64,000 nucleotides of DNA. Source: Miscanthus floridulus. Its lineage: Eukaryota > Streptophyta > Magnoliopsida > Poales > Poaceae. Made by a program: the position numbers and the translations under genes. Within the stretch, counting starts at the first letter, position 1; each line of letters starts with the position of its first letter. The stretch spans positions 80,109,922-80,173,921 of the forward strand of contig NC_089584.1 of the NCBI RefSeq assembly GCF_019320115.1. The letters run 5' to 3'. Below the pieces are notes generated by a model. It did no database searches. It was not told the DNA's origin and was given only the letters and a program-made list of their open reading frames with translations. This document shows, piece after piece, positions 4,561-43,932 of this stretch.

Positions 4561-5099
4561 GTCGTCATTACTCGGCGGCCCTCACTGACATCCCTTGTCA
4601 CCATCGAGCTGCAAGCGAGCTGCCCGCGTCGCCGACCAGATAACGCCATACGCCGCTGACCAGACATTCTGTCTAAAGCTAAGTCACATTTTAATATTCT
4701 TCTAAATATATTTTCACGCCAACTGATCACCGAACTGCATACGCCGTTTCATCACCATTGCTGATTTTTCTCCTAAGTTTATTTATTTGTGCATCATGTA
4801 CTACCCGTTCTATATGCTTGTATTGCAGGATCATCGTCCAAGTGATCGAACCACCTGGTGCTCGGACTTCTCCACCGATCAACTGGTCGGACCGCTTGGT
4901 TCATGGACTCCGTCGCCGACCAGTTGATCGGACTGTTCGCCGATCATTTCTACTCAATGTTCACTTCGCCGCCGACCAATTGACCAGACTGTTCGCCGCT
5001 CATGCTTCATCGCCAGCTACGCCGGTTACTCCTCAGCGCTCGGATTCTTCATGCTCGAGGACTAAGTGGGCACACTTCACCGCACGGACGTCGTTAGCT
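4561..5099 (+). other. Element A spacer between repeat arrays, with an inverted repeat
   Basis: This part is not repetitive apart from a perfect 16-bp inverted repeat, CCGATCAACTGGTCGG at 4875-4890 and its complement at 4916-4931, which could form a hairpin with a 25-base loop. CTCGAGGACTAAGTGGGCAC at about 5054-5073 recurs as a close variant near the 3' end at about 21823. No coding capacity was recognised. Confidence 0.6.
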
Positions 5100-5691
5100 A
5101 CGTTGGTGCTCGGACCTCGCCGCCTACGTCGGGGACTCCTCGGTGCTTGATCATCGCCAATGACGCCGGAGACTCCTCGCTCCTCGGTGCTCGGTCATCG
5201 CCAGCGACGCCGGGGACTCCTCGCTCCTCGGCGCTCGGTCATCACTACCTACGCTGGGGACTCCTCGGTGCTCGGTCATCGCGAGCGACGCTGGGGACTC
5301 CTCGCTCCTCGGTGCTCGGTGATCACCGCCTACGCCAGGGACTCCTCGCTCCTCGGCGCTCGGTCATCGCCGCCTACGCCGGGGACTCCTCGCTCCTTGC
5401 TCCTCGGTGCTCGGTCATCGCCAGCGACGCTGGGGACTCCTCGCTCCTCGGTGCTCGGTCATCGCCGCCTACGCCAGGGACTCCTCGCTCCTCGCTCCTT
5501 GACGCTCGGTCATCGCTGTCTACGCCGGGACTCCTCGCTCCTCGCTCCTCGGTGCTCGGTCATCGCCGCCTATGCCAGGGACTCCTTGGTGCTCAGTCAT
5601 CGCCAGCGACGCCGGGGACTCCTCGCTCCTCGGTGCTCGGTCATCGCCGCCTACACCGGGGACTCCTTGCTCCTCGGTGCTCGATCATCGC
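5100..5691 (+). repeat. 44-bp tandem array, left half
   Basis: The unit is about GACGCCGGGGACTCCTCGCT continuing to 44 bp and is repeated roughly 13 times with small length variants. The array is split by element D, whose ATCGC target duplication lies inside one unit. Because 44 is not a multiple of three, every frame cycles through all three phases and all three stay open, which explains the overlapping long frames here. Confidence 0.9.
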
Positions 5692-8600
5692 TGTCGCAGA
5701 ACCGACCAATTTATAAGAATACAAGTATAATGGCAATCCGCAAGCGGTCGCACTGTCATACTTGAACCCATATAAACCCGGTAGTCCGTCGAGTACCACG
5801 ACGGGTCTCGATAAACGATTTACAACAACCAAGATCGTACAGGATTCAACATTCATGCCACATATTACATAAAGTTCACAGATACTTTTCATCATCAGAG
5901 TACGAATAGAAAGTTATTACAAACCAAGTTTGATAATTAAAGCGGAAGCAAATAAGTTCAAAGATAAGTTTCCAACGTAGTTTGATACAGTGCCATGCCA
6001 GATCACGGTCCACAAAAGCAAAGATAGGAATTACTAAGGAAGCCTGCCCAAGGCTTACTCCTCATCCACAGCGGGATAGAAGCAACTCTTGCAATAACCA
6101 TGATACACAGTGCCATCTGCAACAATGGGAAAATAAACCCTGAGTACAAGAAGGTACTCAGCTAGACTTACCCGTCATGAACCAGAAATAAAATGACTCC
6201 AAGGATTATGCAAGGCTGTATAAGTGGACGTAACTTGACAACATTTTTGCGAAAAAGGCAATTAATCTTTGTACACTTGGGATTCCTTTATCAAGTTAAT
6301 CATAACTATCCATTTCTAGATTAGCAACTACCCTGTGCCAAACATGTGGTATATTATTTAGAATCATACAATAGTAACCATAGCAGGTAATATAATTCCA
6401 TATTCATCCGAACCATCATGTTTCATAACACAGTTACTACGATGTTGGGACTAGCCAAGTTTCTCACTATCCGGGAGAGACGGCGATTCGAATCGATTTC
6501 AACCAGCTGGGAATTTATTCCTAACACAAACCCAGATCTACCAGCCACGATAGTCTTAGGTCACCTTTGGTACAACTCCGGTACACATTTTGCGGGTTCG
6601 TACTGCGCCGCACAATCTGGAACACCAGATGCCAGGATGCTCAGGCCAAGCCTGCCCTTGGGCTCAGTCTGATCGTTCCCCGGAAGGAGCGCACAACAGA
6701 ATGATTCCCGGCCTGAGTTGAATTACTCGGCTTCGCGGTCGGAACGAGTTATCCGGCCAGCTAAGTGAGAGGCATGCGTTCAATCTTGTCAGAAGCGCCA
6801 ACAACGGTACGGTCCTTAATCGACACAGACGGGGATAAGTCCACACCCAAGACCTCCATGCCTTGTTGCTTCCCTATCGACCTCCCGTCCGGTCTCAATT
6901 TACTTTTACCTCATGGTTCTGTTCCACGATAGCAGATATAGCCAACTGTGCTCCGGTATCCACCTATATCTCGCAGGTGACAGGACATCACCCGACTTCT
7001 ACCGGTCTAAGCATGGCTAAGCATATATATATTCGATCCTGGACCTATACCGGTTAAAGGTGTAATATCTGGACAAGGAATGTACATGCATCAATTGGTT
7101 TCATTCAACTCTTATAACCTAATGCATCAACCATAAATACGTAAGTAAACATTCGTAAATTACTGGGAGACTTATAATGCTCCGGGGCTTGCCTCGCAGA
7201 AAGGAAGTAGGACGATGGTCAGGGCACTCCGGAAGCTCTTCAGGGTTCTGCTCCACGCCTTCGGGAGCTGTGGCTTGCGGATCCTCCTGCGGGTTCCTTT
7301 CCTCTGCTTCTTCGAATTCCAGCAACGTGATTTCTTCCTCCGATCCTAGATGCATGAGTATGGTTTGAGTATTACGAATGCATAATGTTAACAAGTGCAT
7401 CACGTTGTTTGAGTAGGTGCATATCTCTTCTCGCTTACTACTTAACTACTTCTACAATGCATCGACTATGCCATAAACAGTATCTACTTGTTTCACTCAT
7501 AACTGGAGTTCTAAATTTCCAAATCTAGTGATCCTAGACTTTCTGGAAAGCTTATCAAATTTTCTACAACTTTGTTATTAACCATTTTTACAGTCTATAT
7601 CAGTTTCAACATGCAACTCATCATATTCTAGAATCAGTCCGGGAATGACTTAACATGCGATATAAAGTAATAACACCTCTACTTCATGTCGTTATTCACA
7701 AATTGACAACCTAAAACCTACCAACAGTTTAAGCATACCAAACATAGTTAGGATAATATAATGGCAAAGCCCAAACTATTTATTAAATTGCCTTTATTAT
7801 TTTATTTAGATATCTAGGTTAAATAATAATTATATATCAGATGTGCTTAATAAATTCTCAGAAATTTACAGAGCCTTGATAATGCTATCAAATGACTACT
7901 ATAAAAATTTCAGGTCATTTTACTAAGTAAAACATCCTATACAAAAATGATAAGGAAGCAAGGCTCGAAATAGCATAAATGGAAAATCCTATTGAAAAGT
8001 GTCAAGCAACAGATTTCTTATTTTTCCTAACATCCATATGGTACTAGTATCACCTCCAACAAATTTCATGAATTTTGGACTCATAATTAATTTATAAAAA
8101 TTCATGCAAGGATTAACTATTTATAAAAGAAAAATCTATAACTATAGATCTACACATGCACTGGTCCTCAAATTTTTATCCAAGCTTAGGTATGACAAGA
8201 ATAGCCTACCACAAAAATTTCATAATTTTTGGAGCACAGGAACTCTAGATATAAAATAAACAAATTTGAATGCATTCAAAAGCACATTGGAAATCCCTAT
8301 TTAAATCTCCAAAAATTTCTACTGTTGAAGCCAAGAACATATTTTTCCTAAATACTACACTTCCTAAGGAACACAACCATATTTATTTCAACATTTTTGG
8401 AGCTACCAATCAGCAGACACAAAAATAACAAAACCACTCAAAAACTGGATTCAAAATGGTTTAGCCTACACTACTGCTGTCGCTGACAGGTGGGACCCGC
8501 TGGTCAGGGGACCCCACATGTCATCGACACAGAGCAGAGCAGCGGCGCTGCTGGGCAATGCGCGGCTGCGGCTCGACGACGGCGAGCTTCGCCGGCGGTG

Positions 8601-10089
8601 AGGTCATCAGGGTAGGACCTACATGACCTGGTGAACCTATTGAGCTACTTGGCCGGCCCTATTGCTGACCCTAGAGCTAGCGGCGGCGGCTATGGCGGAA
8701 CGACGAGGCTGGACGTCGGCGGGACGCCGGTGACGACCTCGGCGGCTCACTCAAACGCGCGGACAAGCATCTACGAGCTACTGGAAACCTAGCGCATCAA
8801 CTAACGCGTGGAATGGTAGACTAAAACGGCGTGGCCACGACGACGAGGTTGGCGGCGGAGCTCCGGCGAGCTAGCGCACGGCGCTGGGGCTTACCGAGTG
8901 CTAACAGCGGGCACGGTAGGGCGCAGGGGGTTGCTGGGAAGACGGTGGAGGGTTGCGGTGGGGATGGAGGAGCTAGGCGCGAGCTGGCGCCTCCAACGGC
9001 GATGGCGGGCTCTCGTCACCGGGGTTGCAGCGGCTGCGGCGAGGTGAGTGGCGAAGGAGAGCCGGGAAAAGCGAAATGAGGGCGCGGACAGGAGCGGGCG
9101 GGTGCTTGCGACTTGAAGGCGCGCCCAGGCGCGGCGTGGCCTGGCTGGGCAGAGCAGAGGCGACGCGCGGCCGTTCTCCCTTCCACGCGGCGGCCAAGGC
9201 CTGACGGCGGTCGGCCATGAACATTTGATTCAGCTCGTTCAGACACCCAAAGCCGAGCCTGACGCCGAGTTTTCACGATGATACAACGGCTAATCCAAGG
9301 CTCCAAAGCGTAAACCATCTTAGCAAAAATCCTAGCCCTATGTACCAGCTTCAACTTTTATTAAGAGAGTAAGCTCTGATTCGCAACAGAAACGTGGAAA
9401 AATCGTGCTCAAGGTGGGCTTGTCAGGCTGTCAGGGATCCAGACTTAGAAAATTTTTCTTAAGTGATGAAAACAGTGAAAAGCTGATTTTTGTGAGTCCA
9501 ATTCAAGCATGTTAGAAGCTAAATCAGTCAAAGGCCCAAAAATCAAAGTTGTTCCTTATGTCAAACTCTACAACTTTGCTTTAGTGAACACCTCCATGCA
9601 AGGTCTCTAACACCTAGTTCAACTTTAGTCAAACATGTCACTTTGAAACCAAGATACACATTCCAACTATGGCTAAATGACCACTTTAGCCCTAGCCCTA
9701 AATACCAAAGTTGTTCATGATGATACTCTAAGCATGTTAAAACAATTTGCAAGGTCATTCAAGCATTTCATGAAGTAGTCACACATATAGCCATTCAGGT
9801 CAACACATGAAATAACACTTAAATGCTTGATCAAGAAATGTGGTCTTCATGAACAAGGTTCCTTTTGTTAACCTAAGTGTAGCTAAGGTGTTATAGTGAC
9901 CAACATTACACACTAGCATTTAGTTGCACATGATCATATGCATATGTTACCAGGAACATGAAATAACAAGCAATGTTTCATATGTTTCGATTAGATGTTT
10001 CAATTGTAAATGATGACTTATGAATGCTTGATGCTCATGCTTATGTTATGCAAGTCAAGTTATGCAAGGCCAACACCCGAGGTGTTACA
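5692..10089 (-). repeat. Element D 3' LTR (4398 bp)
   Basis: It begins TGTAACACCTCGGG on the minus strand at 10089 and ends GGTTCTGCGACA at 5692. The interior is AT-rich except for a GC-rich block at about 8480-9250, equivalent to a GC-rich block in the element B LTR. It carries a small open frame at 7119-7403 that is conserved in element B. Confidence 0.95.
7119..7403 (-). CDS. Small LTR-borne ORF (94 aa), conserved between two element families
   Basis: The frame encodes 94 residues with an acidic centre and the block FLRGKPRSIISLP. A frame at 41103-41408 in the LTR of element B shares EEITL, a P/E-rich centre, a C-DH pattern and FLKGKPRSILSLP. It has no known domain that I recognise. It could be a short expressed peptide or one exon: an acceptor-like ATCTAG precedes the conserved part in D and CAATAG precedes it in B. 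Being in an LTR it is present twice per element. Translation is not shown; the claim rests on similarity between two diverged families. Confidence 0.4.
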   Translation of the reverse strand: MMHLLTLCIRNTQTILMHLGSEEEITLLEFEEAEERNPQEDPQATAPEGVEQNPEELPECPDHRPTSFLRGKPRSIISLPVIYECLLTYLWLMH

Positions 10090-10103
10090 GCCCCTCCCCC
10101 CTT
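10090..10103 (-). promoter_or_regulatory. Element D polypurine tract
   Basis: On the minus strand AAGGGGGGAGGGGC lies directly before TGTAACA of the 3' LTR. It serves as the plus-strand primer in reverse transcription. Confidence 0.9.
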
Positions 10104-10133
10104 ATAAAAATCTCGTCCCGAGATTTGCAAGAC

Positions 10134-13100
10134 CTACCATTCTTGGAAAAAGGCGGGATAAACTTCTTGCAGATAATCTTCTCTTTCCCATGTAGCATCT
10201 TGTTCACTGTGATTGTTCCACACCACCTTATAGAACTTAATGATCTTACTCCTTGTTACTCTCTCCATCACTTCTAATACTCGAATTGGCTTTTCTTCAT
10301 AGGTCAGATCCGATTGGAGCTGCATGTTGGTGGGTGCAATAGCTTCTTCCGGTACTCGAAGACATTTCTTTAGCTGAGACACATGGAACACATCAAAGAT
10401 TGCACTCATCTCTGGTGGTAGTTGTAGCTTATACGCAACATTTCCTTTTCGTTCCAAGATTTTGTATGGCCCTACATATCTTGGTGAAAGCTTCTTTTTC
10501 ATCCCAAATCTCTTCACACCTTTCATGGGTGATACTCTCAAGTATACATAGTCACCCACTTCAAACGTTAGTGGTCTTCTTCTTCTATCAGCGTAACTCT
10601 TCTGTCTTGATTGAGCTGCCTTCATGTGTTGTTGGATGATACGTACTTGTTCTTCGGCTTCATTGACAAAATCAATACCAAAATATCTCCTTTCACCGGG
10701 CTCAATCCAATTCAATGGAGTTCTGCATTTTCTGCCATATAAGGCTTCAAATGGAGCCATTTTGATACTCGCTTGATAACTGTTGTTATAGGAGAATTCA
10801 GCTAAAGGTAACCATTTCTCCCATGAACCTTTTGAAGATATAACACAAGCTCTAAGTAAATCTTCTAGGATTTGGTTCACTCGCTCTGTCTGTCCTGACG
10901 TTTGCGGATGATAAGCTGAACTTCTTATTAGCTTGGTTCCCAAAGCTTGGTGTAAGTGTTCCCAGAAACGAGCTATGAACTGTGGTCCTCTATCTGAGAT
11001 TATGGTCCTGGGTACTCCATGCAATCTCACGATCTGGGCAACATATATTTCAGCGTATTTCCCAACTATATACCGCGTGTTCACGGGTATGAAGTGTGCT
11101 GACTTGGTGAGACGATCAACAATGACCCAGATTGAATCGTGACCTTGTGGTGTTGTTGGAAGGCCTGTAATAAAGTCCATACTGATTTCCTCCCATTTCC
11201 ATCCTGGAATAGGCAATGGCTGAAGTAATCCAGCGGTTTTCATATGGACGGCTTTCACTCTACTGCAGTTATCACACCTTGCAACATAGGCTGCGATCTC
11301 TTTCTTCATCTTAGTCCACCAAAAATGGGTTTTCAAATCTTGATACATCTTACTACTACCCGGGTGGATAGACAATTTGGAGGAGTGAGCTTCTTCTAAA
11401 ATCTGATTCCTTAGCTCACGGTCTTTTGGCACCACTAGTCGGTCCTCAAACCATAATACACCTCTTTCGTCCAATCTAAAATGTTTGGTCTCTTGCTCTT
11501 GCATTTTTCTCTTGATGTGACTTATTCCTACATCAGTCTGCTGTAGCTCTATGATTCTGCCCTCAAGCGAACAACTGATTGTGATATTGTGTAGTACAGC
11601 AGGATGTAGCAAGTTGAATCCATCTTCCAATAGCGCCTCCACTGTGTTGCAATGGGGCTTTCGACTAAGTGCATCGGCTACTACATTAGCTTTACCCGGA
11701 TGGTAATGCACTTCTAAATTATAGTCCTTAATCAATTCTAACCACCTTCGTTGTCTCATGTTTAATTCTGGCTGGGTAAAGATATACTTGAGGCTTTTAT
11801 GGTCAGTATAGATATGACATACATTGCCCAACAAGTAATGTCTCCATATCTTCAATGCATGGACAACGGCTGCAAGTTCCAAATCATGGGTAGGGTAGTT
11901 GACTTCATGTTTCCTCAACTGCCGAGAGGCATAAGCAATTACTCTCCCTTCTTGCATAAGTACACATCCCAAACCTATTCCTGATGCATCACAAAATACA
12001 TCAAAAGGCTTTTCAATGTCTGGTTGTGCCAGCACAGGTGCTGTAGTCAACAAAGTTCTGAGGGTGTGAAAAGCTGTTTCACATTCTGGTGTCCACTTGT
12101 ATTTCTCATCTTTCTGAAGTAGTCTGGTCATAGGCTTAGCTATCTTTGAGAAGTCTGGAATAAACCGACGATAGTATCCTGCTAACCCTAGGAAACTCCG
12201 AACTTCATGCACCGAAGTTGGGGCTTTCCAATCCATGACCTCCTGTACTTTTGATGGGTCTACTGAGATTCCATCTCTGGATAAAATGTGACCTAAAAAT
12301 GGTACTTTGCTTAACCAAAATTCACATTTGCTCAACTTGGCATATAGCTTATGTTCCCTGAGTCTGGATAGGACAATCCTCAGATGCTCTTCATGATCTG
12401 ACTCATTTTCTGAGTAAATCAATATGTCATCGATAAACACGACCACGAACTTATCCAGTTCGGGCATGAATACCGAGTTCATTAGGTACATGAAATAGGC
12501 TGGAGCATTTGTTAGTCCGAAAGACATAACCAAGTACTCGTATAAGCCGTACCTAGTAGAGAAAGCCGTTTTAGGTATATCCTCCGGTCTGATCTTTATC
12601 TGATGGTAACCTGATCTTAAGTCAATTTTGGAGAATACTTTTGCCTTTGCTAGCTGATCGAACAAGATGTCGATGCGGGGTAACGGATATTTGTTCTTGA
12701 TGGTCACAGCATTGAGCGGTCTGTAATCTACACACATCCTTAGTGACTTATCCTTCTTTTTCACAAACAGTGCTGGACATCCCCACGGAGATGAACTAGG
12801 TTGGATAAGACCTTTGTCCAATAGATCTTGCAATTGAACCTTGAGTTCTGCTAACTCATTGGGTGGCATTCTATATGGCCTTCTGGATATGGGTGCGGTA
12901 CCTGGCACTAATTCAATCTTAAATTCCATGTCCCTATCCGGTGGTAGACCTGGTAATTCCTCTGGAAATACATCCGGAAACTCACAAACCACGGGAATAT
13001 CACATATGGTGGTGGCTTGGATAGCACAGGCTAAATGTTGGGGTTCGAATTCGCGGGAGAGTGGGACTAGAAAAGCATTCCCTCCCGTGGGTTCTCTCAA

Positions 13101-14546
13101 CATAATGGTACGGGTGCTAGTGTCAATAAGAGCACCATGATACTTCATCCAATTCATGCCTAAGATTACACTTATCGACAATCCCGGCAATATTATCAAA
13201 TCTGTTGTGTACTCCCTCCCTTGTATCAAAATGAGTACATTTTTTACTATCTTTTTGGTAGTAACTGTTCCCCCTGCTGAACTTATGTTAAAACCCCCTT
13301 TACTTACTTCTATTATTTCTTGATCATGTCTAGATGCAAATGTTTGACTCATAAATGAATGAGAAGCTCCCGAATCAAATAAAACAACAGCGGGGTGCTT
13401 GTTGACAAGAAACATACCAGCCGTGACAACTTCTCCAGCGGGCACTTCCTCCACAGCAGTATAATGCACTTGTCCCTGTCGTGCCCTGGCATTCAACTGC
13501 CTCTGATTGTTCTGCGTGGGGTTGCCATTCCTCTTGGGGTGGGGGCACTCTTTGGACCAATGACCCAGTTGGTTGCAGTTGAAACAGGGTTGATTACTTC
13601 TGAATCCTGTGGAGCTGTCCTGATTGCCATTTCCTTTTGGTAAGGCAATAGTGAACGCCTTACGAAATGGTTTCTGTGGCCTGTTATTCTGAGCTTTTGG
13701 TGGTGGAGGCCTGAACTTGGGTGCAGGTGGACGGAATTGTGGCCTAGCTGGGATAGGCGCTTTCGACTGGAAAGATCCGGATGCACCGGCCTCATATGCC
13801 CTCTTGCGACCTTTAGCAACAGCATGCATGTTGTTGTGATTTTCTTGGGTCAAGGCATCACTAATGAATTCATTGTACGTGGCACATCGGGAGTTTGCCA
13901 TAGTCTTCATTAATTTGGTACCCAGACCTCGCTTGAAACTCTCAATCTTTTTCTCTTCTGTATCCACGAAACTGGGAGCATACCTTGACAAGTTATTGAA
14001 TGCGTGCATATATTCTGTGAGTGACTTGGTTCCCTGAGTGAGCCTCATAAATTCTGCTGCCTTCATGCGCATCAGGCCTAGGGGAATATGGTGTCCCCTA
14101 AAAGCCAATTTGAATTGATCCCAGGTCACTCTCGCATTAGCAGGCAGAGACGACAGAAAGTGCGTCCACCAGATTCCTGCTGGTCCTTGCAATTGATGAG
14201 AAGCGTATTCTGCTTTCAGGTGCTCTGTGACTCTTAGCAGACGAAATTTCTGCTCGATGGTATTCAGCCACTCATCGGCCTGCAGTGGTTCCTCAGCCAC
14301 CTTGAAGATGGGCGGCTTCGTGTCCAGAAACTCCTTGAATGAACTGTGCTGATTTGGCTCGGCCCCTGGTTGCTGTGGGTGGCCACGAGCAGTGTTTTGC
14401 GCGATGAGGCGCAAAGCTTCTTCCATTGTCCTCTGGCTACCCAAGAACTGGGCAAAGAATTCCTGAGCAGACGGCGTGGGTGGGGGTGGCAAGTCATCAT
14501 GGTTGCCATCCTGGCTGCTACTAGCTCCTGCACGGGTGCGCGTCAT
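10134..14546 (-). CDS. Element D Gag-Pol polyprotein (1470 aa, intact)
   Basis: This single uninterrupted frame encodes the structural and enzymatic proteins of a Ty3/gypsy chromovirus. Approximate positions are: retrotransposon gag domain at 70-220; CCHC knuckle [14 protein letters not shown] near 322-335; aspartic protease [10 protein letters not shown] near 388; reverse transcriptase with FIDDILIYS near 700; RNase H from [10 protein letters not shown] near 853; integrase zinc region ending CDNC near 1090; and the integrase catalytic core with D in MDFITG, D in SDRGPQF and E in GQTERVNQ. A chromodomain-like end (about 1415-1465) contains [16 protein letters not shown]. The chromodomain keeps one aromatic cage tryptophan, but the other cage positions are not aromatic, as in group II plant chromodomains. 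The ATG follows a splice-acceptor-like GCAG. Gag and Pol share one frame, as usual in this lineage. Confidence 0.95.
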
Positions 14547-14898
14547 CTGCGAAGTTGCAACAATAAGTGATTATTGGTTGATGCCCAGAGATTGCAGATG
14601 AATTAGATACTCATGCCAAACTGAAATTACTTGGAGAAAATTCTCAAAATCACAATAAAAACAGAGGCATAATAATTCTTTCTCGCAACATGACATCACC
14701 AATTTGACCACTTATTGTGCTCATAACGCATGAAATTTTAGAGCGTGATTACCGACAAAGAACGGAAATTGCATTGACGTTCGTCCAAACATGCGATTAA
14801 CATTACATGATAGTTTGGTTACTAATGCCAACTTCAACTACATGTCCATTACATAAATAGAGGTGATACATTAGTCCTTCCACTAAATGCAAAGCGAT
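14547..14898 (-). other. Element D spacer between extra ORF and gag
   Basis: The spacer is AT-rich and non-coding. Its gag-proximal end reads CACTTATTGTTGCAACTTCG then CAG directly before the gag ATG. This is a pyrimidine-rich tract and 3' splice-site consensus that is closely conserved in element B at 30992-31030. No other feature was seen. Confidence 0.6.
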
Positions 14899-15822
14899 CT
14901 ACTCCTCATCATGATCACTATCGAGGTCAGACGCAGAATCATTTCCTTCATCAGGTTCGACTTCCTCTTCAGGTGCCACTTCTTCTTCTTCTTCGTACCC
15001 TTCTAGATCCATTTCTGCGGCTCCAGGTGGTACATAAGGGTGGAGCTGATTGTGCAGTAGATGAACCTCTTCATGCAAATTATCATTGTATTCTTCCGCA
15101 TTGGCCAGCTGCTGTTCCAGCTCAAACTGTCGAGCTCTTAGGACATCTTCCCTGGACCAAGCTGCATTCCGTTGGTGAGTTAACCGAGTCATCTCTTCGG
15201 TGAGCCTCTCAACCTCGATGTCGTGCTCCCTCTGAAGCTGACGTCGGTCTTCACGGGCATGACCAAGAGCACCAGACACACGTCTGAGGCTACCCTCAAC
15301 TCCATCTAACACTCTCATCATTGCGAACATGGCGCTCATTGCAGGGTTATCACTGTTCTGCCCTTCTGCTGCACCAATTTCTAAGGGTCTTCCTCTTGCC
15401 TGCTGCCATGAGTCAGTGGATGGGTTACCTCTGGGAAAGACTCCAACCAAAGCGGCTGCCAGCTCTTGAGGAAAACGATCCATGATATCCCTCAAGATTC
15501 CAAAGGCTGCCCTGCCAGCTGCTTCTTCAGCAGTCCTGCCAGTCGACTCATAACACCAGCCTGTCCACTCAGAATCGTCACCTCGGGGACGAACAACGGC
15601 CTCCACAGTAACTAAGAGACCTTCTCCCAACCGCTCATTCGCCCAGAAGTAGCGGGGTTCCATTCCATCAGGATAGCCTACATAGCTGAGCACTCTCCAT
15701 AAGAGTGTAGGCATCCCAAACTCTCCAAGGAACGTGTGACGTTGGCGGGTACGTGGAGCAAGCTGACGGCTAGGGGCTCTTCCTCCAGTGGACTTACGAG
15801 CAGTCTGCTTGGTGCGTGCCAT
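14899..15822 (-). CDS. Element D extra protein: histone H3-tail mimic, dsRBD-like domain, coiled coil, acidic tail (307 aa)
   Basis: The frame extends five codons upstream to 15837. I chose the Met at 15822 because a splice-acceptor-like GTGCAG abuts it and because it gives a protein beginning M-ARTKQTARKSTGG, identical to mature H3 residues 1-13. The next residues, RAPSRQLAPR, follow H3 14-23 with K14R, R17S, K18R, T22P and K23R. No histone fold follows. Residues 36-125 form a compact domain (PTLLWRVL helix, three strands, then a GRTAEEAAGRAAFGIL helix) whose order resembles a dsRNA-binding domain but without the basic helix patch. About 185-262 is a coiled coil and 271-307 is strongly acidic. 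A broken homologue without the H3 tail sits at 31370-32391. Function is unknown; chromatin mimicry is inference. Confidence 0.85.
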   Translation of the reverse strand: MARTKQTARKSTGGRAPSRQLAPRTRQRHTFLGEFGMPTLLWRVLSYVGYPDGMEPRYFWANERLGEGLLVTVEAVVRPRGDDSEWTGWCYESTGRTAEEAAGRAAFGILRDIMDRFPQELAAALVGVFPRGNPSTDSWQQARGRPLEIGAAEGQNSDNPAMSAMFAMMRVLDGVEGSLRRVSGALGHAREDRRQLQREHDIEVERLTEEMTRLTHQRNAAWSREDVLRARQFELEQQLANAEEYNDNLHEEVHLLHNQLHPYVPPGAAEMDLEGYEEEEEVAPEEEVEPDEGNDSASDLDSDHDEE

Positions 15823-16300
15823 CTGCACCATCAACATGTACCCTTTGGTGAGACAATGCCATAATGGATAAGAGTTACATAAACGAGTAAGAATTTTATA
15901 AGGGGAGGAACAATGTAGTTATGTGAATGGTATTTTACATGATGCATGCTCGTGCCGTACGTCCTTACAAACTTAGAAAAAATTTGCTTCTAACGGTAGA
16001 CACAGTGGCATACATACGTTCTCTCATATATATCGTAACTAGTCGAGCTACACGTTTCGTTGTTAGTGTACCTGCATAAAATTTCATTTCAGCCCTAAAC
16101 CCATAATGAAATATGCAGAATGTAATTGTAAATACTTCCATATATGTATACCCATACACATACTTCCGTATCAATCTACCCGATAAGAATTTAAACCCAC
16201 AATTAAATACGTACCATATACATATGCAAGCATGCATACATGGCCGTACCAAACTAACTCATCCCGACCGCACGCTCACATCTTGCGGTCATACACTCAT

Positions 16301-16308
16301 CTTACCTT
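16301..16308 (-). promoter_or_regulatory. Putative 5' splice site in element D leader
   Basis: On the minus strand CGCCAAG is followed by GTAAGATG, with the predicted exon end at 16306. The equivalent place in element B (39373) reads TGCCAG then GTAAGAAG. Candidate acceptors are GTGCAG^ATG at 15823/15822 and CGCAG^ATG at 14547/14546. Confidence 0.6.
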
Positions 16309-16574
16309 GGCGTAGAGGCATTTGATCCATACATTACCACTCAAGTGAATGGCATCCATACTATAGCACGCCGTATGGACGACGAAGTAAAAACCCCCAT
16401 GTTAGTACTTAAATAGCCACCTAATAGTCCTTAATTTGGGCATACGGAAAGTGATCAATGGCACACTTTAGATTTCAAATACCTATTATATAACTAATAG
16501 TTGCTAGAGAAGGGTTTTTGGAAAACAAAAACTTTTGTTTTTAAATACACTTGTGACAATTAACGTTGAATCTT

Positions 16575-16586
16575 GCTCTGATGCCA
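16575..16586 (-). promoter_or_regulatory. Element D primer-binding site
   Basis: The minus strand reads TGGCATCAGAGC two bases after the 5' LTR. This is one base different from the standard initiator tRNA-Met site TGGTATCAGAGC. Confidence 0.88.
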
Positions 16587-16588
16587 GC

Positions 16589-19500
16589 TGTCGCAGAACC
16601 GACCAATTTATAAGAATACAAGTATAATGGCAATCCGCAAGCGGTCGCACTGTCATACTTGAACCCATATAAACCCGGTAGTCCGTCGAGTACCACGACG
16701 GGTCTCGATAAACGATTTACAACAACCAAGATCGTACAGGATTCAACATTCATGCCACATATTACATAAAGTTCACAGATACTTTTCATCATCAGAGTAC
16801 GAATAGAAAGTTATTACAAACCAAGTTTGATAATTAAAGCGGAAGCAAATAAGTTCAAAGATAAGTTTCCAACGTAGTTTGATACAGTGCCATGCCAGAT
16901 CACGGTCCACAAAAGCAAAGATAGGAATTACTAAGGAAGCCTGCCCAAGGCTTACTCCTCATCCACAGCGGGATAGAAGCAACTCTTGCAATAACCATGA
17001 TACACAGTGCCATCTGCAACAATGGGAAAATAAACCCTGAGTACAAGGAGGTACTCAGCTAGACTTACCCGTCATGAACCAGAAATAAAATGACTCCAAG
17101 GATTATGCAAGGCTGTATAAGTGGACATAACTTGACAACATTTTTGCGAAAAAGGCAATTAATCTTTGTACACTTGGGATTCCTTTATCAAGTTAATCAT
17201 AACTATCCATTTCTAGATTAGCAACTACCCTGTGCCAAACATGTGGTATATTATTTAGAATCATACAATAGTAACCATAGCAGGTAATATAATTCCATAT
17301 TCATCCGAACCATCATGTTTCATAACACAGTTACTACGATGTTGGGACTAGCCAAGTTTCTCACTATCCGGGAGAGACGGCGATTCGAATCGATTTCAAC
17401 CAGCTGGGAATTTATTCCTAACACAAACCCAGATCTACCAGCCACGATAGTCTTAGGTCACCTTTGGTACAACTCCGGTACACATTTCGCGGGTTCGTAC
17501 TGTGCCGCACAATCTGGAACACCAGATGCCAGGATGCTCAGGCCAAGCCTGCCCTTGGGCTCAGTCTGATCGTTCCCCGGAAGGAGCGCACAACAGAACG
17601 ATTCCCGGCCTGAGTTGAATTACTCGGCTTCGCGGTCGGAACGAGTTATCCGGCCAGCTAAGTGAGAGGCATGCGTTCAATCTTGTCAGAAGCGCCAACA
17701 ACGGTACGGTCCTTAATCGACACAGACGGGGATAAGTCCACACCCAAGACCTCCATGCCTTGTTGCTTCCCAATCGACCTCCCGTCCGGTCTCAATTTAC
17801 TTTTACCTCATGGTTCTGTTCCACGATAGCAGATATAGCCAACCGTGCTCCGGTATCCACCTATATCTCGCAGGTGACAGGACATCACCCGACTTCTACC
17901 GGTCTAAGCATGGCTAAGCATATATATATTCGATCCTGGACCTATACCGGTTAAAGGTGTAATATCTGGACAAGGAATGTACATGCATCAATTGGTTTCA
18001 TTCAACTCTTATAACCTAATGCATCAACCATAAATACGTAAGTAAACATTCGTAAATTACTGGGAGACTTATAATGCTCCGGGGCTTGCCTCGCAGAAAG
18101 GAAGTAGGACGATGGTCAGGGCACTCCGGAAGCTCTTCAGGGTTCTGCTCCACGCCTTCGGGAGCTGTGGCTTGCGGATCCTCCTGCGGGTTCCTTTCCT
18201 CTGCTTCTTCGAATTCCAGCAACGTGATTTCTTCCTCCGATCCTAGATGCATGAGTATGGTTTGAGTATTACGAATGCATAATGTTAACAAGTGCATCAC
18301 GTTGTTTGAGTAGGTGCATATCTCTTCTCGCTTACTACTTAACTACTTCTACAATGCATCGACTATGCCATAAACAGTATCTACTTGTTTCACTCATAAC
18401 TGGAGTTCTAAATTTCCAAATCTAGTGATCCTGGACTTTCTGGAAAGCTTATCAAATTTTCTACAACTTTGTTATTAACCATTTTTACAGTCTATATCAG
18501 TTTCAACATGCAACTCATCATATTCTAGAATCAGTCCGGGAATGACTTAACATGCGATATAAAGTAATAACACCTCTACTTCATGTCGTTATTCACAAAT
18601 TGACAACCTAAAACCTACCAACAGTTTAAGCATACCAAACATAGTTAGGATAATATAATGGCAAAGCCCAAACTATTTATTAAATTGCCTTTATTATTTT
18701 ATTTAGATATCTAGGTTAAATAATAATTATATATCAGATGTGCTTAATAAATTCTCAGAAATTTACAGAGCCTTGATAATGCTATCAAATGACTACTATA
18801 AAAATTTCAGGTCATTTTACTAAGTAAAACATCCTATACAAAAATGATAAGGAAGCAAGGCTCGAAATAGCATAAATGGAAAATCCTATTGAAAAGTGTC
18901 AAGCAACAGATTTCTTATTTTTCCTAACATCCATATGGTACTAGTATCACCTCCAACAAATTTCATGAATTTTGGACTCATAATTAATTTATAAAAATTC
19001 ATGCAAGGATTAACTATTTATAAAAGAAAAATCTATAACTATAGATCTACACATGCACTGGTCCTCAAATTTTTATCCAAGCTTAGGTATGACAAGAATA
19101 GCCTACCACAAAAATTTCATAATTTTTGGAGCACAGGAACTCTAGATATAAAATAAACAAATTTGAATGCATTCAAAAGCACATTGGAAATCCCTATTTA
19201 AATCTCCAAAAATTTCTACTGTTGAAGCCAAGAACATATTTTTCCTAAATACTACACTTCCTAAGGAACACAACCATATTTATTTCAACATTTTTGGAGC
19301 TACCAATCAGCAGACACAAAAATAACAAAACCACTCAAAAACTGGATTCAAAATGGTTTAGCCTACACTACTGCTGTCGCTGACAGGTGGGACCCGCTGG
19401 TCAGGGGACCCCACATGTCATCGACACAGAGCAGAGCAGCGGCGCTGCTGGGCAATGCGCGGCTGCGGCTCGACGACGGCGAGCTTCGCCGGCGGTGAGG

Positions 19501-20986
19501 TCATCAGGGTAGGACCTACATGACCTGGCGAACCTATTGAGCTACTTGGCCGGCCCTATTGCTGACCCTAGAGCTAGCGGGGGCGGCTATGGCGGAACGG
19601 CGAGGCTGGACGTCGGCGGGACGCCGGTGACGACCTCGGCGGCTCACTCAAACGCGCGGACAAGCATCTACGAGCTACTGGAAACCTAGCGCATCAACTA
19701 ACGCGTGGAATGGTAGACTAAAACGGCGTGGCCACGACGACGAGGTTGGCGGCGGAGCTCCGGCGAGCTAGCGCACGGCGCTGGGGCTTACCGAGTGCTA
19801 ACAGCGGGCACGGTAGGGCGCAGGGGGTTGCTGGGAAGACGGTGGAGGGTTGCGGTGGGGATGGAGGAGCTAGGCGCGAGCTGGCGCCTCCAACGGCGAT
19901 GGCGGGCTCTCAGCACCGGGGTTGCAGCGGCTGCGGCGAGGTGAGTGGCGAAGGAGAGCCGGGAAAAGCGAAATGAGGGCGCGGACAGGAGCGGGCGGGT
20001 GCTTGCGACTTGAAGGCGCGCCCAGGCGCGGCGTGGCCTGGCTGGGCAGAGCAGAGGCGACGCGCGGCCGTTCTCCCTTCCACGCGGCGGCCAAGGCCTG
20101 ACGGCGGTCGGCCATGAACATTTGATTCAGCTCGTTCAGACACCCGAGGCCGAGCCTGACGCCGAGTTTTCACGATGATACAACGGCTAATCCAAGGCTC
20201 CAAAGCGTAAACCATCTTAACAAAAATCCTAGCCCTATGTACCAGCTTCAACTTTTATTAAGAGAGTAAGCTCTGATTCGCAACAGAAACGTGGAAAAAT
20301 CGTGCTCAAGGTGGGCTTGTCAGGCTGTCAGGGATCCAGACTTAGAAAATTTTTCTTAAGTGATGAAAACAGTGAAAAGCTGATTTTTGTGAGTCCAATT
20401 CAAGCATGTTAGAAGCTAAATCAGTCAAAGGCCCAAAAATCAAAGTTGTTCCTTATGTCAAACTCTACAACTTTGCTTTAGTGAACACCTCCATGCAAGG
20501 TCTCTAACACCTAGTTCAACTTTAGTCAAACATGTCACTTTGAAACCAAGATACACATTCCAACTATGGCTAAATGACCACTTTAGCCCTAGCCCTAAAT
20601 ACCAAAGTTGTTCATGATGATACTCTAAGCATGTTAAAACAATTTGCAAGGTCATTCAAGCATTTCATGAAGTAGTCACACATATAGCCATTCAGGTCAA
20701 CACATGAAATAACACTTAAATGCTTGATCAAGAAATGTGGTCTTCATGAACAAGGTTCCTTTTGTTAACCTAAGTGTAGCTAAGGTGTTATAGTGACCAA
20801 CATTACACACTAGCATTTAGTTGCACATGATCATATGCATATGTTACCAGGAACATGAAATAACAAGCAATGTTTCATATGTTTCGATTAGATGTTTCAA
20901 TTGTAAATGATGACTTATGAATGCTTGATGCTCATGCTTATGTTATGCAAGTCAAGTTATGCAAGGCCAACACCCGAGGTGTTACA
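16589..20986 (-). repeat. Element D 5' LTR (4398 bp)
   Basis: It has the same length and termini as 5692-10089, with scattered single-base differences and no indel large enough to change the length. It holds the second copy of the small conserved ORF at 18016-18300. Confidence 0.95.
18016..18300 (-). CDS. Small LTR-borne ORF (94 aa), second copy
   Basis: The translation is identical to that of the 7119-7403 copy in the other LTR. See that entry for motifs and the homologue in element B. Expression is not shown. Confidence 0.4.
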   Translation of the reverse strand: MMHLLTLCIRNTQTILMHLGSEEEITLLEFEEAEERNPQEDPQATAPEGVEQNPEELPECPDHRPTSFLRGKPRSIISLPVIYECLLTYLWLMH

Positions 20987-20991
20987 ATCGC

Positions 20992-21650
20992 CGCGTACGC
21001 CGGGGACTCCTCGCTCCTCGCTCCTCGGTGCTCGGTCATCGCTGTCTATGCCGGGGACTCCTCGCTCCTCGCTCCTTGGTGCTCGGTCATTGCCAGCGAT
21101 GCCAGGGACTCCTCGCTCCTCGGTGCTCAGACATCGCCAGCGACGCCGGGGACTCCTCGCTCCTCGGTGCTCGGTCATCGCCAGCGACGCCGGGGACTCC
21201 TCGCTCCTCGGTGCTCAGTCATCGCCAGCGACGCTGGGAACTCCTCGCTCCTCGGTGCTTGGACAACGCCAGCAACGCCGGGGACTCCTCGCTCCTCGGT
21301 GCTTGGACATCACCAGCGACGCCGGGGACTCCTCGCTCCTCGGTGCTCGGTCATTGCCAGCGACGTTGGAAACTCCTCGCTCCTCGGTGCTCGGTCATCG
21401 CCAGCGACGCCGAGGACTCCTTGCTCCTCGGTGCTCGGACATCGCCAGCGACGTCGGGAACTCCTCGCTCCTCGGTGCTCGGTCATCGCCAGCGACGCCG
21501 GGGACTCCTCGCTCCTCAGTGCTCGGACATCGCCAGTGACGCCGGGGACTCCTCGCTCCTTGGTGCTCGAACATCGCCAGCGACGCCGGAGACTCCTCGC
21601 TCCTTAGTGTTCGAACATCGCCAGCGACGTCGGGAACTCCCTTGCTGCTC
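20992..21650 (+). repeat. 44-bp tandem array, right half (element A)
   Basis: This continues the array at 5100-5691 beyond element D. About 15 units alternate mostly between GCTCGGTCATCGCCAGCGAC and GCTCGGACATCGCCAGCGAC variants. Overlapping stop-free frames in all three phases are a by-product. There are no unique spacers, so this is not CRISPR-like. Confidence 0.9.
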
Positions 21651-21980
21651 GAATCTTGCTACGTCTCGTCGGTGTGCTATCAAGCTGCTCCATGCTATTC
21701 AGATCAGGGTGCTGATCTTGGGTAGCACATCTAGGGTCTTGATACGCGCATGTTAGACGACGTCAGCAAGCTTTCAGACTTCTTTGACCCTGCTACAAGA
21801 TTCATTCTTCATCTTCCAGTAGGCTCGGGGACTAAGTGGGCACACTTCACCTTGCGGTGAATGTGCTTGTTCTCATCTCAAGGCTACGCCCGGGGACTAG
21901 CTGCCTGCTCGGCTAGTCTTCTACTTTATGACCCTGGCACCACGTGACTGCGTCACCTACTGTCAGGCTCGAGGACTAAC
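21651..21980 (+). other. Element A 3' non-coding end
   Basis: This holds repeated words of the form CTCGGGGACTA (about 21823, 21890 and 21970), the last ending immediately at the 3' LTR. No typical long polypurine tract is present; GGCTCGAGGACTAAC precedes the LTR. No coding potential was recognised. Confidence 0.6.
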
Positions 21981-22361: not shown

Positions 22362-23021
22362 CCTTGGACTTACACCATTGGCTCTCTGCACATCCTTACT
22401 GCCTCCAGGGTGCGCACTTTAACTGCTCATGTCCCTGTCCTGAGTTGAGCTACTCGGCTTCGCGGTCGGAATGACTTATCCGGCCAACTATGTGAGAGGC
22501 ATGTATTCAACATGACAAGAGGGCCTCCAACGGCCGGTCCTTCAACGACACAGACGGAATCACTATAAGTCACCACACCTAACATATAAGATTCCACCCG
22601 GTCTCCAATTGTTCAACATCACCAGGTCATGTTCCATGATAGCACAATATAGCCAACCATGATCAAGTCACCACCAATAGCTCGCAGGTTACAGGAAATC
22701 ACCTGACTTCTACCGGTCTAAGCATGGCTAAGCATAAAGGTCGATCCTAGACCTACATAGGATTCAAGATAGATATTTCTAGATAAGGAAAGTATATGCA
22801 ACAAGTGGTTCCAATCAACTCTTATAACCTAATGCATCAAACATAAAGGACTCAAGTAATATTTTGTAAAATAGGGGAGACTTAGAATGCTCTAGGGCTT
22901 GCCTTTCATAAACATGGCCGGCTGGTGGTCAGGGCACTCTAGGAGATGATCAACTTCAGGCTCGCCTTCGCCTGGAGCTTCTTGGTGTTGAGCTTCCTAG
23001 TTCTCCTCTTGTGGATCGATC
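22362..23021 (-). repeat. Element B LTR tail, second piece (left composite LTR)
   Basis: This matches about 40636-41290 of the complete LTR copy and carries the equivalent of the small LTR ORF region in part. It ends at the internal deletion joint, where the sequence switches to integrase. Confidence 0.85.
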
Positions 23022-25475
23022 TGACACAATGCTTTTAGGCACACCATGCAATCATACGATTTGGGCAATGTACAACTTTGCGTACTGATGGGGTCATTAT
23101 CTTTCCTTAACAGGGATGAAATGTGCAGATTTAGTCAAACAATCAACAATTACCCATACAGAATCATGACCCTTTTTAGTGGTTGGAAGCCCAACTATAA
23201 AATCCATACTAATGTCATCCCATTTCCAACTTGGGATGGACAGTGGCTGAAGTAGTCCAGCTAGCTTCAAATGGATGGCCTTGACCCAACAGCAATTATC
23301 GCATCTAGCAACAAATGCTACAATTTCTTTCTTCATTTTTGTCCACCAGAAGCGTGTTTTTTAGATCTTGGTACATTTTACTACTACCTAGGTGAATGGA
23401 CAAATTAGAAGAGTGTGCTTCCTCTAGAATTTGGTTTCTCAATTCTCTATCTTTTGGCACTACAAGCCGATCCTTAAACCATCTTCTCTGCCTCATGTTC
23501 AATTCAGGTTGGGTGAAATTGTATGTGAGGCTCTTGTGATCGGTGTAGATATGGCAAACATTACCAAGCAGGTAATGTCTCCAAATTTTAAGAGCATGGA
23601 CAACTGCTGCTAATTCTAAATCATGGGTTGGATAATCGACTTCATGCTTTCTCAATTGCCGCGAGGCATAAGGAATAACTTGGCCTTCCTGCATTAGAAC
23701 ACACCCCAAACCGGTACCCGATGCGTCGCAAAACACATCAAAAGGTTTCTCAATGTCAGGCTATGCTAAAATAGGAGCAGTAGTTAACAATGTTCGTAAA
23801 GTGTGAAAAGATGCCTCACACTCCAGTGTCCATACAAATTTCTCATCCTTCAGAAGCAACCTAGTCATGGGCTTGGCAATTTTGGAGAAATCCAGAATAA
23901 ACCAACGGTAATATCCTGCTAAGCTAAGAAAACTCTGAACCTCATGAATGGAGGTTGGGGCTTTCCAATCAAGAACCACCTGCACCTTGGATGGGTCCAC
24001 CAAAATTCCATCTTTAGATAAAACATGGCCTAGGAAAGGTACTTTCCTCAACCAGAATTCACATTTACTAAATTTAGCATATAACTTATGCTCTCTCAGC
24101 CTAGACAACACCATTCTCAAGTGCTCTACGTGATCTTCTGCATTCTCGGAATAGATCAAGATATCATCGATAAACACAACCACAAACTTATCAAGCTCGG
24201 GCATGAATACCAAGTTCATTAAATACATGAAATAGGCAGGAGCATTGGTCAACCCAAAGGACATGACTAAATACTCATAAAGGCCATACCTAGTGGAAAA
24301 AGTCATCTTAGGTATGTCCTCAGGCCTGATCTTGATTTGGTGATAACCTGACCTCAAATCAATCTTAGAGTACACTTTTGCTTTTGCCAATTGATCAAAT
24401 AAGATATCAATCTGAGGCAAAGGATATTTATTCTTGATAGTAATAGCATTGAGTGGTCAATAGTCCACACACATCCGCAAAGACTTGTCCTTCTTTTTCA
24501 CAAATATGGCTGGACAACCCCATGGTGATGAACTAGGGCGAATGAGACCCTTTTCTAAGAGATCTTGCAATTTGGTCTTCAATTCTGCTAATTCATTTGG
24601 CGGCATTCTACGAGGTCTTCAGGAGACGGGCGCTGTACCTGGTATTAACTCAATCTTGAACTCTATATCCCTGCCGGGTGGTAACCCGGGCAATTCGTCT
24701 AGAAAGACATCCGGAAATTCACATACTACAGGAATATCAGCAAGGGCCACTGGCTGGATAGCATTGGCCACCTTTCAGAGATCAAACTCCCTAGAAAGGG
24801 GTACTAGAAAAGCATCATTATTCCTGGGGTCTCTCAACATAATGGTTCTAGTCGATGTATCGATAAGGACACCATGGTTCTTCATCCAATTCATACCCAA
24901 GAACACATCTATACCCAATCCCGGTAATCTCTTCCATGGTGGTGTAATGCACATACCCTGGGCGTGCATTTGCAGCTGCTGGCTTCTGATTATTCTTCTT
25001 GGGATAAGGGCACTCCCTCGCCCAATGACCAATCTTGTTCCAATTGAAACATGGTTGATTGTTAGGCGGTGCCTTCGAGTTACCTTGTCCTGCACCACCC
25101 TTAGGTAGTAGAGCAATAGAGTATGCCCGATGATACCCTTTATTTGCTTGGCTTGGCTGGGCCTTCTTCAGAGGTGGCCGGTATTTTGGAGCAGGTGGGC
25201 GGTATTGGGTTCTTGCCACCACTGGAGCTCTCTACTGAGATGCACCAGCTTCAAAGGCCGTCTTGCGGCTCTTGGATGCAGCATAAATATTATTATGATT
25301 CTCTTGTGTGAGCGCATCACTCACAAATTCATTGTAGGTCTCACTCTTGTTATTTGCTACAGTCTTCATCAACTTTGGACCTAGTCCTCTCTTGAAACTT
25401 GCAATCTTCTTAGCATCGGTATTCATAAACCTAGGCACATACCTTGAGAGGTTGTTGAAGGCATGCAAGTACTCA
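23022..25475 (-). pseudogene. Truncated pol-gag inside the left composite LTR of element B
   Basis: From right to left this holds gag (from the HAFNNLSRY region), the CCHC knuckle (25010-25060), the start of the protease region, reverse transcriptase with FIDDILIYS (about 24150), RNase H ([10 protein letters not shown] at about 23730) and part of integrase (CDNC and MDFIVGLP at about 23200). Frames are broken by stops, and the protease and the end of integrase are damaged or missing. The gag end joins LTR sequence at the same breakpoint (GTACTCA/C) as the right composite LTR at about 47534. Confidence 0.85.
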
Positions 25476-29500: not shown

Positions 29501-30991
29501 CCTTTTGGAGATCAAACTCCCTAGAAAGGGGTACTAGAAAAGCATCGTTATTCCTAGGGTCTCTCAACATAATGGTTCTAGTCGATGTATCGATAAGGAC
29601 ACCATGATTCTTCATCCAATTCATACCCAAGATCACATCTATAGCCAATCTTGGTAATATCACTAAATTTGCAGTATACTCTCATTCTGTTATTTGGATA
29701 AATACATCTTTAACTATCCGATTGGTAGAAATGTTACTCCCAGTTGCACTTATATAATAACCACCTTTGTCTACTACAAATATTTTCTGATCATACTTGG
29801 ATGCAAATGTTGGACTCATGAATGAATGCGAATCCCTAGAATTAAACAGAACAACTGCAGGGTAATGGTTCATAAGAAACATACCAGCTGTGACAACCTT
29901 GCCAGAGGGAATCTCTTCCATGGTGGTGTAATGCACATACCCCGGGCGTGCATTTGCAGCTGCTAGCTTCTGATTATTCTTCTTGGGGTAAGGGCACTCC
30001 CTCGCCCAATGACCAATCTTGTTGCAATTGAAACATGGTTGATTGTTAGGCGATGCCTTCAAGTTACCTTGTCCTGCACCACCCTTCGGCGGTAGAGCAA
30101 TAGAGTATGCCCGATGATACCCTTTATTTGCTTGGCTTGGCTAGGCCTTCTTCTAAGGTGGCCAGTATTTTGGAGTAGGTGGGCGGTATTGGGTTCTTGC
30201 CACCACTGGAGCTCTCTGCTGAGATGCACTAGCTTCAAAGGCCCTCTTGTGGCTCTTGGATGCAGCATAAATATTATTATGATTCTCTTGTGTGAGCGCA
30301 TCACTCACAAATTCATTGTAGGTCTCACTCTTGTTATTTGCTATAGTCTTCATCAACTTTGGACCTAGTCCTCTCTTGAAACTTGCAATCTTCTGAGCAT
30401 CGGTATTCATAAACTCAGGCGCATACCTAGAGAGGTTGTTGAAGGCATGCAAGTACTCAATGAGACTTTTGGTGCCCTGAGTAAGCTTCATAAACTCTGT
30501 ATGTTTCATGCTCATAAGACTTGGGGGAATATGATGTCCCCTGAAAGTAGTCTTAAACTCATTCCATGTAACCTGAGCATTAGCAGGGAGGGTAGACAGG
30601 TAATGAGTCCCCCAAATGCCTACTAGACCATGCAACTGATGTGAGGCATATTCAGCCTTCATATGCTCTGTAACTCTCAAGAGACGAAACTTCTGCTCAA
30701 TGGTATTGAGCCATTCATCAGCTTGCAATGGCTCCTCTGCCTCCTTAAAGATAGGAGGTTTAGTGTCCAAAAAGTCCTTGAATTCACTGTACTGATTTGG
30801 TTCAGGCCCCTGGTGTTGGTCCCATCCCCGTCCACGACCGGTGTTCTGTGCAAGCCTGCATTGTACTTTCCCCATAGACCGTTGGGTCTCCAGGAGCTAG
30901 GCCATCATTTCCGCTGGCATGGGGTACGGTGGTGGTGGGAGATCATCATCACCCTCACGACGGGTACCGGCCCTCCGCGAGTGCGAGTCAT
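26589..30991 (-). pseudogene. Element B gag-pol, degenerate
   Basis: This is homologous to the element D polyprotein along its length. The gag start is at 30991 after TTTTGCAG; gag body 30153-30875; CCHC near 29990-30040; protease about 29800; reverse transcriptase with FIDDILIYF near 28890; RNase H about 28220-28465; integrase with CDNC and MDFIVGLP about 27620-27740; and the chromodomain-like end 26589-26885 with [12 protein letters not shown]. At least ten breaks (stops and frameshifts) divide it, for example an early gag stop, a frameshift near 29220 in the reverse transcriptase, and stops near 27380. It is not functional as it stands. Confidence 0.92.
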
Positions 30992-32391: not shown

Positions 32392-32580
32392 CTATAGCAA
32401 ATGTTACAATTTAGTGAGACACATGATTATAGAAAAGAGTTACTTAACAATAAGATCTTGCAAGGGGGAGGAACAATGCAATGATATGAATGAATGATGT
32501 ATCATGATGTATGCTCGTTCCATACATCCTCACAAACTTAGAGAAATAAATCCTAACGACATACGCGGTGGCATACATAC
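32392..32580 (-). other. Element B leader, part downstream of element C
   Basis: This continues the leader found at 39016-39667, split by element C. It aligns with 15823-16010 of element D, including GTCTCACTAAA upstream of the putative acceptor. Confidence 0.6.
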
Positions 32581-43908: not shown

Positions 43909-43923
43909 GCCCTTCGCCCCCTT
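43909..43923 (-). promoter_or_regulatory. Second polypurine tract inside the composite LTR
   Basis: The minus strand reads AAGGGGGCGAAGGGC before TGTAATACC, equivalent to 26566-26580. Confidence 0.7.
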
Positions 43924-43932
43924 AAAGAAATC

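Follow-up and report, generated by a model that had tools for sequence, protein, structure and literature searches.

Results

A grass chromovirus with an extra gene upstream of gag

The window analysed here (the whole stretch of 64,000 nucleotides from Miscanthus floridulus) contains an intact and recent Ty3/gypsy retrotransposon with a chromodomain, element D (5692-20986). Its parts are the following.

5687-5691, no strand: target-site duplication ATCGC, left
5692-10089, minus strand: 3' LTR, 4398 bp, TG..CA in sense (LTR comparison)
10090-10103, minus strand: polypurine tract, in sense AAGGGGGGAGGGGC
10134-14546, minus strand: gag-pol, 1470 aa, uninterrupted (open reading frame list and Pfam)
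10137-10307, minus strand: C-terminal chromodomain region, type II-like (Pfam, PDB profile, sequence)
14899-15822, minus strand: ORF0, 307 aa (read directly from the sequence)
16575-16586, minus strand: primer-binding site TGGCATCAGAGC
16589-20986, minus strand: 5' LTR, 4398 bp (LTR comparison)
20987-20991, no strand: target-site duplication ATCGC, right

ORF0 is located 5' of gag in sense orientation; both its coordinates and its assignment to a retrotransposon agree with the original prediction. Gag-pol comprises, in this order, gag, zinc knuckle, protease, RT, RNase H, integrase and a C-terminal chromodomain. The LTRs are 99.64% identical (16 mismatches in 4400 aligned bases), which at a substitution rate of 1.3e-8 per site per year gives an age of about 0.14 My. 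The traits of Tekay/Retrosat2-type elements found in D include TG..CA LTRs longer than 3 kb, target-site duplication, primer-binding site and polypurine tract, the gag-PR-RT-RH-IN order with C-terminal chromodomain, and a sense ORF0 upstream of gag. By its LTR features, domain order and ORF0 position, element D is an ORF0-bearing grass chromovirus. As far as the accessible text of two papers goes, its ORF0 has the same position and strand relative to gag-pol as in Retrosat2, RIRE3, RIRE8 and Tekay-type grass elements; grass host and long LTRs are common to all of them, and the maize and sorghum proteins are reported to have a long C-terminal helix, a further likeness to D (PMC3485330, PMC11728184).

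Element D is inserted within an array of 44-bp tandem repeats (5085-5690 and 20933-21756), the right part of which is open in three plus-strand frames. LTR and gag-pol pieces related to D lie at 22439-25474, 39010-41372 and 43415-48438, with 69-77% DNA identity (blastn) and up to 88% in short pieces. A second, decayed chromovirus has left gag-pol remains at 26613-30974 and an ORF0 of its own:

31373-32391, minus strand: related decayed ORF0 of the second element, starting MVAPGAPIASDTFLALFG (sequence comparison)

Middle domain and acidic end are present in this decayed frame and the H3 tail described below is absent; TATAG stands directly 5' of its ATG.

ORF0 begins with a histone H3 tail

The ORF0 protein can be divided into four parts.

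15751-15822, minus strand: equivalent of the H3.3 first coding exon, ORF0 residues 1-24, MARTKQTARKSTGGRAPSRQLAPR (PDB match, codon and exon comparison)
15373-15735, minus strand: middle domain (PTLLWRVL..), dsRBD-like by eye (profile not significant)
15013-15282, minus strand: coiled-coil-like region, limits approximate (many of the weak Pfam matches listed being to coiled-coil families)
14902-15012, minus strand: acidic C-terminus, 21 D/E in the last 40 residues

The N-terminus reads MARTKQTARKSTGG, and the 307-residue protein (15822 to 14899, minus strand) starts M-ARTKQTARKSTGG-RAPSRQLAPR. Direct translation bears out the original claim that the 13 residues after Met are those of H3 and are followed by RAPSRQLA. 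The best H3 tail in PDB matches residues 1-24 with E = 2.9e-05. A chance match had been called very unlikely, and with the composition of ORF0 an exact 13-residue H3 match behind an ATG is indeed expected only about 2e-14 times per window, which rules out chance as the origin of the tail. Pfam contains no histone family matching ORF0 up to E = 10; no histone fold follows the tail, as had been stated from the outset, and the protein is not a histone. As in histone mimics, its sequence holds an H3-identical site with a modifiable lysine in context.

The likeness of the middle domain to a dsRBD, seen by eye, did not reach significance in profile comparisons. Against a dsRBD profile, hhalign gave a probability of 0.4%, a value surpassed by 8 or more of 100 column-shuffled controls in one comparison and by 4 of 100 in another. 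Neither of the two PDB matches of the middle-domain profile is a dsRBD, nor is any of the 25 of 105 Pfam families listed for 42 members, and the domain itself found no match among the Pfam families listed. The basic KKxAK-type motif, which we take to be characteristic of dsRBDs, is absent from it. For maize and sorghum ORF0 the comparison with the dsRBD fold is likewise weak in the part of the source available (TM 0.35-0.37; PMC11728184). ORF0 is modular: in one subfamily the middle domain is missing, and tail, coil and acidic end are kept.

The tail is shared by many copies

We searched the assembly of the host, Miscanthus floridulus (2.68 Gb in 2420 contigs), for further copies. The search for D-type ORF0 yielded 40 full-length places, scored from 2081 first-look candidates and all listed at 96% or more; 38 of the 39 places other than the window's own copy were compared. 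The 24-residue tail is identical in 35 of these 38 copies, the remaining three showing two decay-like changes each, and the frame is open over at least 300 residues in 33. The second subfamily, searched with a protein query, gave 150 matches scored from 12064 first-look candidates, and they begin at query residue 1 in 147 cases and at residue 2 or 4 in three. Twenty of the 150 places, hand-picked and mostly among the better matches, were compared. Their protein lacks the middle domain and consists of tail, coiled coil and acidic end. The presence of the tail in 35 of 38 D-type copies and in a second subfamily shows that it is no oddity of a single copy. The original prediction had proposed looking for it in other copies and had named its absence from every other copy, with neighbouring residues conserved, as one outcome that would refute the reading; the exact D-type matches and the second subfamily point the other way.

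The first-look candidates number 12064 for the subfamily without middle domain (protein query) and 2081 for the D type (DNA query), two figures which are not strictly comparable. Two ORF0 copies on one contig (C17) lie 21 kb apart, each 99.78% identical to that of the window. An NCBI predicted protein of Miscanthus floridulus (P0055) joins a C-terminal piece of gag-pol to a C-terminal piece of ORF0; it appears that annotation has merged transposon parts into one gene model here.

Three protein searches, with about 8000 candidates scored in each, listed 62 of 62, the best 120 of 823 and the best 120 of 997 matches. The tail is present in 33 of the 152 proteins from the first two protein searches. 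Among the 269 proteins listed, the window's own excluded, 32 have class I and 29 class II tails; the other 208 are without tail by the rule used, many predicted frames starting further in. The class II tail reads, with variation, MARTKxTPRKSxGPKGVPRHQLAPR: all 29 have K4 and 28 have K9, A7 is replaced by P in all 29, Q5 varies, and every one of the 29 has a lysine near position 14. Viral contigs gave 49 pattern matches, none of them a relative.

The tail matches the first coding exon of H3.3 genes

Next, ORF0 was compared with the H3 genes of the host, of which 97 matches were listed from 150 scored of 3861 candidates. In all nine intron-bearing genes (L077-L085) the first coding exon ends after codon 24, with AAG/GT at the boundary, and the resemblance of ORF0 to H3 ceases at residue 24. 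All nine have T31 and Y41, which we take to be the residues that distinguish H3.3 from H3.1; A31 and F41 are found in 26 of 27 intronless H3 loci, L070 being the only one outside this pattern. These 27 loci, which remain from 30 after L068, L069 and L071 are set aside as having no tail start, entered the codon test.

The best H3.3 gene (L078) uses the same codon as D for 13 of 18 shared residues, where 5.5 are expected from the codon usage of the element (P = 0.0002, uncorrected for 36 genes that include several near-identical pairs). P is below 0.05 for seven of nine H3.3 genes vs none of the 27 intronless loci. All 39 D-type copies are nearer to H3.3 codons (13-14 of 23 identical) than to those of any intronless gene (7-9), and the same applies to 20 of 20 members of the second subfamily (7-11 vs 4-8 identical). 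The run ACT GCT CGC AAG is, with few exceptions, common to both subfamilies and seven of the nine H3.3 genes. From the exon end and the codon match together we conclude that an H3.3 gene supplied its first coding exon to ORF0 by capture. On the question of capture against convergence, raised by the original prediction, these results support capture. Its reading of a retrotransposon protein with an H3 tail stands and is refined, the donor being an H3.3 gene and the piece ending where the exon ends.

Convergence without capture, which would have built an H3-like peptide anew, could appeal to the class II tails, less H3-like than the others. It is already disfavoured and we consider it hardly credible, with a resemblance that stops at the H3.3 exon boundary, codons that match H3.3 genes, and agreement with H3 at G12, G13, A15, P16, L20 and A21, residues without evident reader role.

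Upstream of the exon, tgcag directly precedes the ATG in three of the nine H3.3 genes (L079-L081), as in ORF0. Judging by position alone, a splice site was probably captured along with the exon; the ORF0 leader shares with the sequence upstream of H3.3 genes only chance-level matches of 10-14 nt and nothing longer.

Selection on the tail and its residue pattern

Comparison of the D family with the second subfamily over residues 1-16 gave 0.52 synonymous and 0.084 nonsynonymous differences per site (dN/dS about 0.10); over residues 1-24 the ratio is 0.13. These values come from 39 x 20 = 780 non-independent pairs. Between the subfamilies that have the middle domain, tails are identical at 13-20 of 21 positions and residues 37-110 only at 43-68%. 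D-type and P0022-type proteins share 17-20 of 21 tail residues and 46-55% of residues 37-110; the most diverged tail, that of P0012, is identical at 13-17 of 21. The pattern of substitutions shows purifying selection on the tail between subfamilies.

Among the close copies of the D family, conservation of the tail is nothing out of the ordinary. It has six synonymous and six nonsynonymous variants, a ratio of 0.37 vs 0.18 in the body, and windows of 24 codons are as conserved as the tail or more so in 95 of 284 cases by cells and 179 of 284 by variants; 66 of 260 body windows are likewise without a shared replacement. Each of the six tail replacements is private to one copy and all are C to T or G to A. 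Such ordinary conservation among close copies, with replacements of this kind, is what a passive relic of exon capture would show, or a tail retained merely as a splice site and start codon. This explanation is already disfavoured and in our judgement improbable: between the diverged subfamilies, where synonymous change is ample, dN/dS is about 0.10, and the tail is retained in the subfamily without middle domain. Capture from an H3.3 gene followed by long-term retention of the tail is a well-supported reading of these sequences, held with high confidence.

Among the 33 tail proteins (counts include P0131, whose sequence is offset by one position beyond residue 13), K4 is present in 31, K9 and S10 in 32 each, and R8 in 28, the rest having H or C. 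K14 is replaced by R in 30, K18 by H or R in 33 and K23 by R in 29. G13 is found in 31, R14 in 30, A15 in 28 and R23 in 29. Both classes thus retain the lysines open to methylation, and class I has lost most of those open to acetylation, a sequence pattern that fits a tail read or written at K4 and K9 and kept from acetylation.

ORF0 residues 13-23 are also compatible with an import signal. The main rival to a mimic would be an H3-derived nuclear-localisation signal, kept for import only, which we regard as unlikely. According to the available part of the structural work on Kap123, this importer reads the H3 tail via K14 and K23, small residues flank K14, and K14R has a minor effect on import (PMC5677370); in ORF0 the residues G13, R14, A15 and R23 are kept in the numbers given above and class II retains its lysine near position 14. 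In the Kap123 structure only H3 residues 12-17 and 21-26 are ordered, according to the same partial source (PMC5677370), so import alone cannot explain residues 1-10, which are well kept in ORF0.

Upstream start codons and candidate splice sites

The following features surround the starts of ORF0 and gag.

14547-14549, minus strand: CAG directly 5' of the gag ATG, candidate 3' splice site (37 of 38 other copies, one not covered)
15823-15825, minus strand: CAG directly 5' of MARTK, candidate 3' splice site (sequence; 38 of 38 other copies)
15823-15837, minus strand: two in-frame upstream ATGs (MLMVQ-MARTK), 5 and 3 codons 5' of the tail Met
16304-16308, minus strand: candidate 5' splice site AAG/GT(AAGA), last exon base 16306

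The in-frame upstream ATGs, overlooked by the original prediction, are found in all 38 other D-type copies and could block a free Ala1 end. A free H3-like N-terminus consequently requires either splicing at the CAG or a choice of start site. The putative donor AAG/GTAAG is retained in 35 of the 38 other copies; these are closely related, so the retention of this donor and of the two CAGs is weak evidence of constraint. Where the residue before the tail Met is visible, it is Q in 13 of 13 proteins of class I and R in three of three of class II. In the second subfamily YAG stands directly before the ATG in 20 of 20 places, behind a pyrimidine-rich stretch. Between primer-binding site and ORF0 there are 31 ATGs, seven of which precede the candidate donor. 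When 143 AGs are ordered by a crude acceptor score, the site before ORF0 comes 38th and that before gag 15th. Splicing of D messages would, from these signals, join one leader to two acceptors, producing separate messages for ORF0 and gag-pol, with MARTK placed first in its exon.

Gag itself starts MTRTRAG (14546), and CAG directly precedes its ATG too. Just 5' of ORF0, the apparently noncoding stretch 15844-16017 is 74% identical to 32410-32580 of the second, diverged element; a branch point or some other signal may lie there.

The chromodomain of element D

The chromodomain scores 18.8 bits in Pfam, below the Chromo cutoff of 25.1; its best PDB match is 2m2l_A (7.1e-05), followed by Clr4 (0.0022) and MPP8 (0.019). 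In the aromatic cage the tryptophan is kept and H replaces the third aromatic, as expected for type II. Since this domain is encoded by the same element, the ORF0 tail might be its ligand and either connect ORF0 with the integration complex or mask it. Two sources, in their accessible parts, state that the partner of type II plant chromodomains is not known (PMC6317226, PMC3350952). The H at the third cage position makes methyl-lysine reading by the D chromodomain doubtful, and we think such self-recognition rather improbable.

Discussion

We propose that an ancestor of these chromoviruses took the exon with codons 1-24 of a host H3.3 gene, probably together with the preceding 3' splice site, and that this exon became fused to ORF0 upstream of gag. 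The resulting protein starts with an H3-like tail and finishes with a coiled coil and an acidic stretch, with a middle domain between them in some members of the family. It would enter the nucleus, where a coiled-coil oligomer could present several H3.3-like tails at once. These tails might engage host readers and writers of the K4/K9 end of H3. Acting as soluble decoy or substrate, ORF0 would then blunt the H3K9-linked silencing of the element; alternatively, it would tether products of the element to chromatin. Splicing, oligomerisation, nuclear action and either effect are inferences.

Our favoured reading, in line with the bait or tether suggested by the original prediction and one on which our confidence is evenly balanced, is that ORF0 may be an H3-tail mimic, decoy or tether, that followed capture of the H3.3 exon. 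Its most specific form, a multivalent H3.3 decoy which resists acetylation, can be methylated and protects the element by sequestering or misdirecting readers and writers of H3K9 methylation, with alternative splicing yielding either ORF0 or gag-pol, is tentative, though conceivable from the residue pattern. Among the points that speak against a mimic, a related element in the window has an ORF0 without the tail, and the A7 to P change of class II should weaken HP1-type binding.

Steinbauerova et al. reportedly found that chromoviruses of the Poaceae carry extra ORFs in their 5' region, some of which partly resemble an H3 gene, and are said to have suggested transduction or recombination as the source. 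To our knowledge, the abstract of that work makes no statement on H3.3, an exon boundary, a splice site, K4/K9 or selection. Those ORFs are very probably of the same kind as ORF0 of element D, and the H3 similarity of extra ORFs in grass chromoviruses is thus probably already in print. In the part of the open-licence literature covered, we found no report of an H3.3 exon captured by a retrotransposon, of selection on such a tail or of a mimic function. Neither of two papers on grass ORF0 uses the word 'histone' in its main text (PMC3485330, PMC11728184); the H3.3 tail, its exon-exact capture and the selection on it are described here.

ORF0 resembles histone H3.3 in residues 1-24, codon choice and exon end, and differs from it in having no histone fold and in the replacement of K14, K18 and K23. 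We know of no histone tail in the VANDAL anti-silencing proteins. They too are extra transposon proteins that counter silencing, as the accessible text describes them (PMC11728184); unlike D, VANDAL is a DNA transposon, and its protection is sequence-specific. Histone mimics recognised by H3K9 methyltransferases carry, in the part of the source available, the ARKS word in a non-histone protein, as ORF0 does (PMC10611923). Unlike them, ORF0 has the tail from Ala1 on and is a transposon protein, and it is a candidate substrate only.

The function of ORF0 in grass chromoviruses is given as open in the accessible text of one study (PMC3485330). A selected, exon-bounded H3.3 tail offers a hypothesis for this function at the level of a peptide, and perhaps a partner for the type II chromodomain. 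In grass proteomics, the tail might also interfere with anti-H3K4me or anti-H3K9me signals. If the mimic reading is true, ORF0 would be a transposon counterpart of histone mimicry, present in very many genomic copies, and the mimicry would take place within H3K9 methylation, the very pathway that silences such elements.
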